The notes beneath the pieces are model-generated. The model did no database searches. It worked only from the letters and a program-made list of their open reading frames with translations, and had not been told where the DNA came from. Made by a program: the position numbers and the translations under genes. Below are positions 18,624-23,109 of a stretch of 23,109 nt of DNA, piece after piece. The stretch's first letter is position 1. Each line of letters opens with the position of its first letter. Origin of the DNA: Candidatus Desantisbacteria bacterium CG1_02_49_89. GTDB lineage: Bacteria > Desantisbacteria > UBA1551. Where the stretch lies: the NCBI GenBank assembly GCA_001871075.1, contig MNUP01000095.1, positions 1 through 23,109 of the forward strand, in the 5' to 3' direction.

Positions 18624-19604
18624 TTATTTTATCGGAATTTCGCTCTGGCTCTTCGCGCTGCCGGTCGCGATAGTCAACATCCAGCTCATTGTTCCCTTTG
18701 CCGGGATTGGCATAAGCGTACCTTCCTTACTCCCCTGCTCAAGGGTTTCAACCCCGCAGTTCGTGGGCTCAAGCCCGGCGTTAAAATGAAGGTCGTTCCC
18801 GCCGGGAAACCCGCATTGCGTTATCCAGATGCCTATATACGGGATCTTGTCCTTCGGGTAATAGTACATCAGGTATTCCTTTGAATTCGGCTCGTAGAAC
18901 CCGCACCAGCCTTCAGGAACTATGCCGGTGAAAAGCTTGCGCGCGAGCTTTGTTGAAGAATCTCCGAAAGGAGCGGACATTATCGCGCCTTTCTCCGTGA
19001 ATGTCCAGGGAGAAGAGTCTCCTTTTAGCACCGTGCCTTTCGGGAAGAGCATTTCCATTCCCGGGCTGATAGCCGCAAGGTAATGCGCCGCCCATAACGC
19101 CTTGAAAGGCTCGGGAGCGTAATTCGTGACCTTGTACATTATCCTTACTCTGTTCTTGGCAAGGATTATGGTTTTTTCAAAAAGGTAAGGGAAGCGCATT
19201 CCGTGCACCCAAAATCTCGCAAGGCTAAAGCCTTGCCCTACTTTAATTTCATAATCCCAGGGCATCGCCCATATTTCCCCGTGGTCAGGCACTGTAATTT
19301 TTTTCCAGGCTCCGTCAGGATACGGGCACTGCCCCACCGTGGGGAAGCAATCGTCAAATCCGCTGATGTCATAGTTCGTGAAAGTCGCAGCATAGGGCGG
19401 GAGCTTGTACGGCTTGGGATTGTGCCATGCCCAATCCCTTCCTGTAGGCTTATATACGAAGGAAGCAATATTGGCTCCCCTGCCGGGAAGGACGATCAAT
19501 TTAAGCGTCTCATTCTCGATTTGCACCGCCTTAAGCCCGCGGTACTCAACTTCCTTGACCTCGGCAAAAACATTAATAGAACTAATTACCTGAAAAACGG
19601 ACAT
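18624..19604 (-). CDS. Galactose-mutarotase-like protein (aldose 1-epimerase superfamily), 326 aa
   Basis: All-beta protein with features of the mutarotase-like fold: VLPGRGANIASFVYKPTGRDW near the N-terminus, His108 in PDHGEIW, His174 in WAAHYLAAI, and Glu279 in FNAGLEPTN. These sit where the catalytic His/His/Glu of aldose 1-epimerases are expected, so sugar anomer interconversion or hexose binding is plausible; substrate unknown. No signal peptide is seen, so it is probably cytoplasmic. The ATG at 19604 has only a weak ribosome site; a TTG at 19643 is an alternative. Residues 1-5 (MSVFQ) are encoded by the end of the inserted element 19589-19911, so the original 5' end has been replaced. 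Residues 121-131 (KVGQGFSLARF) come from a palindromic repeat. TAA stop at 18624. Confidence 0.7.
   Translation of the reverse strand: MSVFQVISSINVFAEVKEVEYRGLKAVQIENETLKLIVLPGRGANIASFVYKPTGRDWAWHNPKPYKLPPYAATFTNYDISGFDDCFPTVGQCPYPDGAWKKITVPDHGEIWAMPWDYEIKVGQGFSLARFWVHGMRFPYLFEKTIILAKNRVRIMYKVTNYAPEPFKALWAAHYLAAISPGMEMLFPKGTVLKGDSSPWTFTEKGAIMSAPFGDSSTKLARKLFTGIVPEGWCGFYEPNSKEYLMYYYPKDKIPYIGIWITQCGFPGGNDLHFNAGLEPTNCGVETLEQGSKEGTLMPIPAKGTMSWMLTIATGSAKSQSEIPIK
19219..19236. repeat. Palindromic repeat in frame in the mutarotase-like gene
   Basis: GCAAGGCT-AA-AGCCTTGC, perfect 8-bp arms. With its flank it reads GTAGGGCAAGGCTTTAGCCT on the minus strand, a sequence I recall as a common intergenic repeat in several phyla. 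It codes for VGQGFSLAR between two beta-strands. It shares the CT-AA-AG centre with the intergenic hairpin at 14802-14819, so both may be one family. Confidence 0.7.
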
Positions 19605-19634
19605 TTTTGACAAATTTTCCGATGAGTGGGTGCT

Positions 19635-19671
19635 AATCCACAAAGTTCACATTTAGTGAGGTTTGTGGATT
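19635..19671. other. Long imperfect hairpin inside the MITE-like element
   Basis: AATCCACAAA (19635-19644) pairs with TTTGTGGATT (19662-19671). Inner pairs TTCAC/GTGAG follow after a single G-G mismatch, and the loop is ATTTA. The stem ends directly at the ATG of the broken frame at 19672, so it may have limited its translation or formed part of a former element end. Confidence 0.55.
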
Positions 19672-19883
19672 ATGCCAAAAAAAGACTGTAAAAAATTCAA
19701 TTTTCCATCGATACAGATGGTCTTACTCAATTTGGAGGAACATCTTTTTTCATTAATTTTGCAAATACTAAAAGATTTTCAGTTTATATCCCCTCGGGCA
19801 ATACTATAATAAACAATATTTTTGTATTAAATTTTATTCAATTTGCAAATGAATTACATAATAATCCCGACGACGAGAGCTAA
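19672..19883 (+). pseudogene. Decayed reading frame, possibly a transposase N-terminus
   Basis: One frame starts MPKKDCKKFNFPS at 19672 and stops at 19807. A second frame, free of stops from 19692 to 19883, reads IDTDGLTQFGGTSFFINFA just after that point. Joined by one frameshift they resemble the opening of DDE transposases of the IS1380 type (basic start, LTxFGG motif). This is a weak resemblance; the rest of a transposase is missing. It could also be chance AT-rich sequence. Confidence 0.3.
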
Positions 19884-19911
19884 AAAGAAAGCTTTTTATC
19901 CGTTTTTCAGG

Positions 19912-19935
19912 TAATTAGAACCGTCCCCCGATTTT
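19912..19935 (-). repeat. Third copy (head only) of the cassette module
   Basis: The minus strand reads CGGGGGACGGTTCTAATTA, identical to the head of the module at 22680-22877 and one base different from that at 21846-22042. It overlaps the stop codon of the DUF262 gene. On the far side of the MITE-like element about 11 bp of module (TTCTATTAATG) continue before the mutarotase-like coding sequence; the ATPase fragment is absent here. Confidence 0.8.
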
Positions 19936-21826
19936 ATAATTCTGATTTTAATAATCCGACATACTGAATTTGTTGCAGTAATAATTTCTTTCTTTCATTA
20001 ATGAATTCTTCAAATGAACTTATATCCCAATTCCCTTCCGGGATCATGTGAGTTTTAAATACTTCACCCCTTTTACTCCCTAGTCCTTCTACCCATTCAT
20101 TAAAAGGATCATCTAATTTTGTTCTGTTATCATAAAGAGGCACATATCTAATATTGTAAATTGAATTAATTTTGTCATCTGTAATACCAGCAGTTTTTAG
20201 TTCTGCCTTACAGAAAATATGGTCTTGTTCTGGTAAATTCTTTTTATATCTTGGTTTAAATTGAATTGAGTTTTTGTAAATTACTGAAAGAAAAAGATAG
20301 CTTTCCTTACTATTATATTTATATCCATCAATAATATTTTCTTTTAATTCCATGCTCTTATTAGAGCTTTCTATTGCAGATTCAATTATATCTGCAGGGA
20401 AAACTTCGGAGTTTTCATCAATTACCTGTTTACACTTATAGAGTATATTATCGGATTGCCCACCAAAAACACCACTTAATAACGCCTTAATCAACCAAGT
20501 TCTGATATTCGATAATTGAATGAGATCTCTATCGCCACTCAAAGATTTATATTTATTCTTAAATTTCCAATATATGATCGGTATTAATGCATTATAACTT
20601 GGAATAAGTTTTGGTGAATTAATAATGTATTCATCTAACTTATCTATTGTAAACTCAAAGGAAGATTTAATATCTTTCCAATTTTCTATCATTTTGCCTA
20701 TTTTATTTTGCGAGAAGTTGTTAACACTATATTTAATGTCATCGGATTTATCGGCTAAAATCACTAAATAACTTTTTAAAATAAAATCATTGTCAAAATC
20801 ATAATTATTTCCATTTAAATCGTCTAAAAGTTTTTTAAAACTTTCTCTTGCATCTGGCCAGTTTAATTTTATTCTTGAAAATAAAAGATCAGAATATCCT
20901 AATTTAACACCACCGGAATTGGCTCTAACAAAAATATCCAAAACTCGATCATAATCTTTTTCTCTGATAGGAAAATAGTTAATAGTTTTTTCTTGCATTA
21001 CTTGGTATAAATCATTAATATTATCCTTTATTCTCTGCTCCTTCTCTTTCTTGATACTTTTACCTTCCAAAATTTTATTGTAGAATTTTTCTTTATCGCT
21101 TGATTTACCTATATCGGCTTCAAATACCTTTTTTACATTAATCCATGCTTTGATACCAAACTCAATTCTCATAAATATTTCTTTAATTTTGGCTTCTTCT
21201 TTAGCACTCATTCGTCCTTTCCTTTTATAATAATTTCCTTCTCGCGAATATATTGCCTCTATTGTCTTTCTCGCATTATTTTCTAATAGTTCCCCCGAAA
21301 GATTATTTTCATACTCTATCTTATCTATCCTTTTTGGTATGTCCGCATCAAAATAAAATATTCCATTTTTTCCATCCTGAAATTTAAATTCAAACAGCAA
21401 ATTATCATCATTTTCTTTATCTCCACTTAATGCATTTAAATAAAGTTCCTTATCACATTCTTCTTTATCTTCCCAAAATCCACGCAATACAATATTGAAT
21501 GTAGTAAGTCTTTGTTGCCCATCTAAAACAAGCCAATATTCGTCTCGTTCTCTTGTTTTAAGTTTATCATTATTTTTCATATTACTGTTTAAAAAAGTAT
21601 ACATCTCTATACTAATATTTCTAGTTTTTTCGATTTCTTCAATTACATCTTTGGATAGTGTCCATATTAAAAACGTTCCTATTGGATATTTTCGCATCAG
21701 GGAATCAAACAATTTATAAACATCAAGCTCTTTCCAAACAAAAGGTCTTTGAATATCGGGCAAAAATGAATTTTTATTTACTTTGTCCATTATTGTACTT
21801 ATTGTTTCACTTATATATTCAGGCAT
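19934..21826 (-). CDS. DUF262 protein with C-terminal HNH-like motif (GmrSD-type), 630 aa
   Basis: The ATG at 21826 has a strong GGGAGG ribosome site. The N-terminal DUF262 (ParB/Srx-like) domain shows FLPDIQRPFVW (21-31), YPIGTFLIW and the hallmark DGQQR (102-106). The middle is helical and Lys-rich. Near the C-terminus, EQDHIF (His536) is followed by YNIRYVPLYDNRTKLDDPF, which fits the His-Asn-Asn of a DUF1524/HNH nuclease, although the second half is shorter than usual. Proteins of this build include the GmrSD type IV restriction enzymes, which cut modified phage DNA with NTP use; an anti-phage role is therefore likely but inferred. The gene is visibly AT-rich next to its neighbours and lies between repeated modules, which points to horizontal acquisition. 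TAA stop at 19934 overlaps the next module. Confidence 0.85.
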   Translation of the reverse strand: MPEYISETISTIMDKVNKNSFLPDIQRPFVWKELDVYKLFDSLMRKYPIGTFLIWTLSKDVIEEIEKTRNISIEMYTFLNSNMKNNDKLKTRERDEYWLVLDGQQRLTTFNIVLRGFWEDKEECDKELYLNALSGDKENDDNLLFEFKFQDGKNGIFYFDADIPKRIDKIEYENNLSGELLENNARKTIEAIYSREGNYYKRKGRMSAKEEAKIKEIFMRIEFGIKAWINVKKVFEADIGKSSDKEKFYNKILEGKSIKKEKEQRIKDNINDLYQVMQEKTINYFPIREKDYDRVLDIFVRANSGGVKLGYSDLLFSRIKLNWPDARESFKKLLDDLNGNNYDFDNDFILKSYLVILADKSDDIKYSVNNFSQNKIGKMIENWKDIKSSFEFTIDKLDEYIINSPKLIPSYNALIPIIYWKFKNKYKSLSGDRDLIQLSNIRTWLIKALLSGVFGGQSDNILYKCKQVIDENSEVFPADIIESAIESSNKSMELKENIIDGYKYNSKESYLFLSVIYKNSIQFKPRYKKNLPEQDHIFCKAELKTAGITDDKINSIYNIRYVPLYDNRTKLDDPFNEWVEGLGSKRGEVFKTHMIPEGNWDISSFEEFINERKKLLLQQIQYVGLLKSEL

Positions 21827-21845
21827 TTAACCTCCCTTTATAACA

Positions 21846-22042
21846 TCAATTGATCTGCCTTATCAATTTCTAAGTTTAAGCTATCTTATTATTCAAGCCA
21901 CTGAAGAATTCCAGCGTGGCGTTCCTCAAAGCACCGGTATTTTTCAGCCTAATTTTCTTTATAGCCGGTATATGAAAATATGCCGCTACAAGCACTCTAT
22001 TCTTCCCTCATCATAGAATTAATTAGAACCATCCCCCGATTT
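21846..22042 (-). repeat. Cassette module copy A (197 bp) upstream of the DUF262 gene
   Basis: In reading order: CGGGGGATGGTTCTAATTA head (22040-22020), a purine-rich ribosome-site-like tract, a 39-codon GTG-started frame, and a tail AGAAATTGATAAGGCAGATC ending about 20 bp before the DUF262 start. It aligns over its whole length with 22680-22877, with only small indels in the tail, although the genes they precede are unrelated. Confidence 0.85.
21876..21995 (-). pseudogene. Truncated SMC/RecF-like ATPase N-terminus, copy A (39 aa)
   Basis: The GTG-started frame reads AIKKIRLKNTGALRNATLEF followed by FSGLN, then stops. This is the first beta-hairpin of AAA/SMC/RecF-type ATPases (I-K-x-I-x-L-K-N-x-G-x-F, then L-x-F-x-x-G-L-N), which should continue into a Walker A loop. 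Here the frame ends just before Walker A. It is diverged from copy B (38 aa) but keeps the frame. It could be a broken gene start or a leader peptide. Confidence 0.6.
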
Positions 22043-22046
22043 CTAA

Positions 22047-22661
22047 TTATTTATTTTTCACAAATCTTTCTTTGCCGCATTTTTTGCATTTTATACCCGG
22101 AGGCCAGACTGTCATTTTAATTTCCCTGAATTCTCGATTAGTAGTCATATTTTCCTGGCCGCATCCCGAACAAATCCACTTTTCTTTAATAATCTTGACA
22201 GGATCAGGCGGTCTGCCTTTTCTCACAGGCCTTATAGCAAGTTTGTCAATTAATAGCAGTGCAAGCGCTTTATCCTTCTCATCATCCGTTGAAAGATACT
22301 GGCTTTTGTCCCGGTTTACGACAATCTTATCCAGCAATTCTCCGTTTTCCACAGGCGTGAAATGTGCTTTAAAAATCATAAGACCGGTCCAGCTGCGATG
22401 TAAGTATAGCCATTCCCCTTCCCTGTAGATATTCCATTTTTCTTCCATAACCTGCGCTTCATAACCTAAATTTATCTTTTCCAGGTGCCGCCGGTTATAA
22501 AATCTATTGCATTTCAATTCAGCATTAGAATCAGGCATCGGCTTTGACTGATGCGTTTTACCTGCTTTCTCTTTGGAAGTTATCATCGAAAACCCGGTCC
22601 CCATTATCGCCCATTGGCGAAGAGCGTCTGATAGGGAAAACAATTCAGTATTATCTTTCAT
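22047..22661 (-). CDS. Unrecognised 204-aa protein with RSWTG motif and C-terminal zinc ribbon
   Basis: The ATG at 22661 follows a GGAAGAG ribosome site. I do not recognise a named family. Residues about 52-145 look like one compact domain: RFYNRRHLEKINLGYEAQV, then KWNIYREGEWLYLHRSWTG (RSWTG 89-93), MIFKAHF, and an acidic DDEKDKALALLLIDKL helix. The C-terminus has Cys164-x2-Cys167 and Cys192-x2-Cys195, a zinc ribbon that could contact nucleic acid or protein. I loosely recall RSWTG-type domains near ADP-ribosylation genes, but that is not firm. It is one cassette upstream of the DUF262 gene, has the same 5' module, and ends 4 bp before the next module, so it may belong to a mobile or defence set. 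Confidence 0.7.
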   Translation of the reverse strand: MKDNTELFSLSDALRQWAIMGTGFSMITSKEKAGKTHQSKPMPDSNAELKCNRFYNRRHLEKINLGYEAQVMEEKWNIYREGEWLYLHRSWTGLMIFKAHFTPVENGELLDKIVVNRDKSQYLSTDDEKDKALALLLIDKLAIRPVRKGRPPDPVKIIKEKWICSGCGQENMTTNREFREIKMTVWPPGIKCKKCGKERFVKNK

Positions 22662-22679
22662 TTTTTCTCTTCCAATTTT

Positions 22680-22877
22680 AATTCAATCTGTCCTACTAAT
22701 TTCTGAGCTTCAGTTTATCTTTTGATATTCAAACCGCTGGAGAATTCTAATGCGGCGCCCTTGAAAGGACCGATGTTTTTCAGCCTGATTTTCTTTATAG
22801 CTGGTACATGAATATATGCCGCTTTAAACACTTTGCTTTCCCTTTCTAAAGAATTAATTAGAACCGTCCCCCGATTT
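22680..22877 (-). repeat. Cassette module copy B (198 bp) upstream of the 204-aa gene
   Basis: Same layout as copy A: CGGGGGACGGTTCTAATTA head, AATTCTTTAGAAAGGGAAAG tract, 38-codon GTG-started frame, tail AGAAATTAGTAGGACAGATT, ending about 18 bp before the downstream ATG. The GGGGACGGTTC core is a type of sequence I recall near IS200/RAYT-like (Y1) transposase genes, but no such transposase is present in the window. Confidence 0.85.
22715..22831 (-). pseudogene. Truncated SMC/RecF-like ATPase N-terminus, copy B (38 aa)
   Basis: The GTG-started frame reads AIKKIRLKNIGPFKGAALEF, then SSGLNI, then KR and a stop. It is closer to the family consensus than copy A (IGPFKGA, LEFSSGLNI) and ends exactly where GxNGxGKT should follow. 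An AAAGGGAAAG tract lies just upstream of the GTG, so it could still be translated. Confidence 0.6.
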
Positions 22878-22987: not shown

Positions 22988-23109
22988 ATGGAAACTAAAA
23001 CTACTTTTAAGGAACTGTACAGTTTCACTGGTTTTCGTGCATGCTCGCGGTTAAAGACGTATCCCGATGACTCTGAGGCACGGGTTGTGGTAGTGAATCG
23101 GCGCCAAAA
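22988..23109 (+). CDS. N-terminal fragment of a plus-strand protein, possibly a transposase (partial)
   Basis: Forty codons are open to the right edge: METKTTFKELYSFTGFRACS, then RLKTYPDDSEARVVVVNRRQ. The basic, arginine-rich start behind a strong promoter and a possible terminal repeat suggests a transposase, but the visible part is too short for a family call. There is no Shine-Dalgarno, in keeping with the near-leaderless promoter. It is the only convincing right-facing gene start here. Confidence 0.5.
   Translation, partial: METKTTFKELYSFTGFRACSRLKTYPDDSEARVVVVNRRQ

Follow-up and report, generated by a model that had tools for sequence, protein, structure and literature searches.

Putative solo ends of Y1 transposase elements, two with a duplicated gene remnant, between accessory genes of a Candidatus Desantisbacteria genome

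Organization of the locus

The window analysed here, a contig stretch of 23,109 nucleotides from Candidatus Desantisbacteria bacterium CG1_02_49_89, carries a minus-strand row of genes that are preceded or followed by copies of a 23-bp sequence (the head), in two cases continued by a longer module. Its features are the following:

22855 to 22877, minus strand: head 1, AAATCGGGGGACGGTTCTAATTA, read as a solo terminal inverted repeat (TIR) of a Y1/RAYT (TIRYT) element, the same TIR standing around RAYT genes at loci L067, L090 and L040
22680 to 22854, minus strand: module 1 body, a putative remnant of the 5' end of an ATPase gene (VFKAAYIHVPAIKKIRLKNIGPFKGAALEFSSGLNI, then a stop) with a tail of about 40 bp, from translation, a weak AAA_23 match and alignment
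22047 to 22661, minus strand: 204-aa protein with zinc-ribbon-like CxxC motifs at its C-terminus; no family found
22020 to 22042, minus strand: head 2, with one mismatch, GGGGGATGG, from sequence match
21846 to 22019, minus strand: module 2 body, 78% identical to module 1 and with the same truncated putative ATPase start (VLVAAYFHIPAIKKIRLKNTGALRNATLEFFSGLN), from search, translation and alignment
19934 to 21826, minus strand: 630-aa DUF262/GmrSD_N protein, PADLOC candidate defence family HEC-05 (Pfam E 6e-28; PADLOC E 4e-115)
19912 to 19934, minus strand: head 3, read as a solo TIR broken at TAATTA by another element, from sequence comparison
19590 to 19911, no strand assigned: 320-bp multicopy element with inverted ends CCTGAAAAACGGA and an AT-rich target duplication, TAATTA; seven genome matches including the window copy

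The two modules (22877-22680 and 22042-21846) lie 835 bp apart and both open with AAATCGGGGGA(C/T)GGTTCTAATTAATTC. As the original prediction had stated, they align with each other, the alignment spanning about 193 bp with 78% of positions identical (E 1e-35 in a search of the whole genome), and the interval between module and gene, foreseen as some 20 bp, was measured at 18-19 bp to the start codon in both cases. The three heads of the window share one orientation, which also agrees with what had been described. The further claim that each gene ends 0-5 bp from the next head holds for heads 2 and 3, the stop of the zinc-ribbon gene lying 4 bp from the former and that of the DUF262 gene overlapping the latter by one base, but no gene was identified ahead of head 1: the contig terminates 232 bp past this head, and the upstream side of the array falls outside the view. 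At 22989-23109, on the plus strand, an ORF begins (METKTTFKELYSFTGFRACSRLK...) that is cut off where the contig terminates; this fragment gave no Pfam match and is possibly a repeat that broke the assembly.

A fourth head is found elsewhere in the genome (C14:1904-1926), in a row composed of a RhuM gene, an ORF6N gene and a 386-aa gene, between the last two. The DUF262 gene of the window and the RhuM and ORF6N genes of C14 are accessory genes that match PADLOC candidate defence families, and the 204-aa zinc-ribbon-like protein was assigned to no family in profile searches.

The module body and the third head

Both module bodies contain 35 codons, open without a frameshift, that read like the beginning of an ATPase (VFKAAYIHVPAIKKIRLKNIGPFKGAALEFSSGLN and VLVAAYFHIPAIKKIRLKNTGALRNATLEFFSGLN) and end just short of the position of the Walker A motif. 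The Pfam match, to AAA_23, spans profile positions 1-23 with an E value of 0.035, below the cut-off, and the body is tentatively regarded as a truncated ATPase N-terminus whose family name comes from this sub-threshold match of 23 positions. Differences between the two copies at codon positions 1, 2 and 3 stand at 8:5:8, which does not suggest purifying selection since the duplication; because the copies diverge evenly over codon positions, the module body is probably a dead, old local duplicate. In the alignment, the homology of the two modules runs on beyond the truncation point, and the truncation would therefore be older than the duplication. An intact parent ATPase gene was not found in this genome, in 98 genomes or in plasmids, a PDB search gave no match, and a query with an artificially added Walker A motif retrieved from the genome itself, as the only other hit, a distant match (37%) on contig C64. 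Neither the rest of the genome nor the 98 genomes searched contain another copy of the 198-bp module.

The third head described at 19912-19935 is indeed present, with its 23 bp, but no module stands behind it, the head alone being common to this site and the modules. The 320-bp element, which is unrelated to the head, begins with its 13-bp inverted end inside the TAATTA of head 3. Its other matches are on contigs C118, C19, C11, C45, C53 and C59; two copies with both ends visible have TAATTA on either side, and others have differing AT-rich flanks. The simplest reading is that a MITE-like element was inserted into head 3.

The head as a terminal inverted repeat

As judged by sequence comparison, the 23-bp head is the TIR of elements encoding Y1 (RAYT/TIRYT) transposases. 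In Elusimicrobia (loci L067 and L090), the 20-mer AAAAGGGGACGGTTCTAATT is arranged as an inverted repeat around a gene for a 222-aa Y1 transposase, and in a deltaproteobacterium (L040) the inverted 16-mer AAAGGGGACGGTTCTA is present on both flanks of the Y1 gene. The original guess that a mobilisation site was involved is thus borne out, as is the proposed search for a Y1 transposase: the window holds no Y1 gene, the genome has 10 Y1_Tnp matches, and all eight other head-bearing genomes searched carry Y1_Tnp, with 2-9 matches each. In the Desantisbacteria genome, the Y1 gene of contig C13 is flanked by AAGGGGGACGGTTC, a close version of the head, and that of C100 by a 26-bp inverted repeat, AAAAAAGGGGACGGGTTCATTTATTT; these resident TIRs match the window head at only 12-14 bases. 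In the tree, the C13 protein is placed with the L040 protein (87/87), and the proteins having TAGGGACAG TIRs constitute a separate group (91/99). Published TIRYT TIRs have GGGGWSAS in common (PMC3733652), as a majority and not a universal motif (PMC3733652, PMC6006769), and the head, GGGGACGG, fits it at 7 of 8 positions, one base off.

Several observations were made around Y1 genes and related motifs. On C14 (locus L008, 180-1380), AGGTTCTTTATAGGCAGGG(GC/AT)GGTTCTATTTT motifs stand ahead of both the RhuM and the ORF6N genes, and the RhuM stop is followed by GGGGACGGGTTCATTT, a TIR of the type carried by the C100 element. On C13 (L010/L014), a Y1 gene, a nucleotidyltransferase-like/HEPN-like pair, the end motifs GGGGACACATTACTTAATT and GGGGTCAGGTCTTGACATTTC, and a DUF4143-like ATPase gene occur together. 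At L040 and L067, which belong to two phyla, the Y1 element adjoins a stretch that reads like the core of RHS repeats, for example YDPALGRFITKDPLAY. Other Y1 genes of the Desantisbacteria genome (L019, L020, L021) lie amid tandem palindromic repeats of a different type, such as CTTCAGGTTTGA and GGGCTTTAGCCC.

Distribution and placement of the head

A scan of GTDB genomes (257 billion bases) with an exact 17-mer yielded 76 contig stretches with 87 head copies in many phyla, the taxa including Elusimicrobia, Omnitrophota, Nitrospirae, Deltaproteobacteria, Syntrophomonadaceae and Planctomycetes, among others. According to a rough base-count calculation, some tens of 17-mer hits would be expected by chance in that many bases, and lone hits are possibly of this sort; neither several copies per genome nor conserved surroundings can be attributed to chance. 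The 17-mer had zero copies in IMG/VR, and a viral origin was rejected on this ground and on the lack of a viral relative for the zinc-ribbon protein. A literature search for the head motif returned nothing relevant (an unrelated fungal paper matched), and there is no Rfam match at the locus.

Placement was evaluated with simple longest-ORF gene calls for 77 intergenic heads with an upstream gene, in comparison with random intergenic positions. The upstream gene was on the same strand for 57 of the 77 heads, compared with 54% of random positions (p 2e-4), and 19 heads were situated no more than 20 bp past a same-strand stop, compared with 5% (binomial p 6e-9). Of the 87 heads, 21 were paired with an inverted copy at most 127 bp away, in the manner of REP or TIR doublets, and five direct pairs were spaced by 39-49 bp. 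Y1_Tnp was the commonest neighbour family (4/86), and the 25 families listed for 86 controls did not include it (Fisher p 0.12, taking the controls to have none); as Y1 genes make up only these four neighbours, most heads are solo. The neighbour families are diverse, arbitrary genes without defence enrichment, PADLOC matches being no commoner than among control genes further off on the same contigs. The earlier description of the cargo as defence or accessory genes stands for the DUF262 gene, with its match to HEC-05, but does not extend to head neighbours in general. Heads often adjoin gene fragments: at Nitrospirae loci, the head is followed by a sequence interpreted as a restriction-modification enzyme's C-terminal tail, and on contig C68 of Elusimicrobia UBA9627 by sequence reading as the C-terminal part of HsdS. 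Deletions linked to the element, one-ended events or recombination involving two ends would be likely to leave such fragments.

Also in UBA9627, contig C79 bears an independent array of four heads in one direction, with spacings of 968, 1252 and 1617 bp. Its genes encode a DUF4143 ATPase and Fic, REase-like and TPR/SIR2-like proteins, the names being based on recognised sequence features rather than on a per-protein family table. Behind three of the four heads lies a shared 128-bp module, the second copy being 97% identical and the third 61% identical ungapped or 78% gapped. Because it ends in ACGTCCCC, which resembles an imperfect inverted end, this module looks like a short non-autonomous element. 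The cassette-like layout therefore recurs, in part, beyond the window.

Interpretation of the array

All things considered, it is probable that the locus contains solo Y1-element ends among accessory genes, that one end was locally duplicated together with a dead ATPase start, and that these ends do not form a dedicated cassette system. The head would be the TIR of a TIRtron/TIRYT-type element with a RAYT-like Y1 (HUH) transposase; from what is known of the family, a transposase acting in trans on solo ends would cut such ends and copy them in single-stranded form. Three such ends would have been left beside gene stops in a stretch of accessory genes, one of them directly upstream of an ATPase gene that was then truncated before its Walker A motif. 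The unit made of this end and the dead ATPase start would have been duplicated long ago, giving rise to two modules, each before a different accessory gene, and a separate MITE-like element would later have inserted into the third end. Local duplication alone leaves the different gene after each module copy unexplained. Homologous recombination between the same-direction repeats may also shuffle genes. Both the mobilisation in trans by a resident Y1 protein and the duplication of end and pseudogene are steps that we infer.

The original prediction had noted a resemblance to gene cassettes joined at a recombination or mobilisation site. In such a cassette-like system, a Y1 transposase would move head-to-head units (head, linker and accessory gene) and insert them at heads, thereby building arrays; the four-head array of C79, with the same layout, and the occurrence of RhuM, ORF6N and DUF4143 genes close to heads or to motifs akin to them in different phyla would fit. 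However, head neighbours are mostly arbitrary, with defence genes no more frequent than in controls; in the one cross-phylum ORF6N pair, the genes match whereas the intergenic DNA differs and the head points the other way; TIRYT ends that have been characterised are inverted and not direct; and no empty or rearranged site was seen, all of which makes this system unlikely. What survives of the proposal is that the head is the end of a mobile element and that the layout recurs in UBA9627, the movement of genes as TIR-bounded units being only a possibility.

The original prediction had taken module copies present only here as the mark of a simple local duplication. This is what was found for the 198-bp module, confined to its two neighbouring copies. 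The head, by contrast, is widespread and lies beside many different genes. A plain segmental duplication of a stretch with head and pseudogene, the transposase having no role, would agree with that confinement and with the even codon-position divergence. Nevertheless, head 3 and the C14 head occur without the module and the head is a TIR elsewhere, and it therefore appears to be mobile in its own right; we regard a plain duplication as quite unlikely. Integron cassettes with an unusual attC, an idea based on same-orientation genes with a common spacer between them, are largely refuted and hardly credible, given that no integron integrase scored above the TIGR02249 cut-off in a genome search (6% of the genome missing) and that the module, already described as not an obvious attC site, gave folding scores no better than those of shuffled sequences (z -0.05 and -1.31).

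The preferred reading, solo Y1-element ends with a local duplication, thus invokes a known kind of element in an unusual arrangement, the cassette idea being a minor hypothesis. By it, a widespread anonymous motif of uncultured bacteria (GGGGACGGTTCTAATTA) is assigned to Y1 transposase elements, an assignment that accounts for apparent cassette layouts and for gene fragments beside the motif. A bolder proposal, with a decidedly small chance of being right, is that solo TIRs of Y1 (TIRYT) transposases serve as one-sided cassette ends, taking up neighbouring accessory genes, whole or in part, and lining them up in a single direction; uncultured bacteria of groundwater and sediment would then possess an integrase-free analogue of the integron. 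If the transposase did build recurrent direct arrays, this would represent a new route for the spread of accessory genes.

Comparison with known systems

The locus resembles integron gene cassettes in its unrelated same-direction genes with a common spacer, but differs from them in lacking an integrase and a foldable attC. The 320-bp element shares with MITEs its short, non-autonomous nature, inverted ends, AT-rich target duplication and several genomic copies. REP/REPIN sequences, like the heads, are short extragenic repeats, frequent 3' of stop codons and thought to be Y1-mobilised in trans; an identity of the head as a GTAG REP was rejected, since the window heads have neither a GTAG tag nor a stable hairpin beside it. 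The closest likeness is to TIRtrons/TIRYT (Di Nocera et al. 2013, PMC3733652; TnpA-REP subclass 2.1, PMC6006769), which have a GGGG-starting TIR, a Y1 gene between inverted copies, and solo and doublet TIRs scattered in the genome. Unlike in these elements, the head here does not strictly follow the GGGGWSAS motif, and the solo ends bear gene fragments and are directly oriented between accessory genes.
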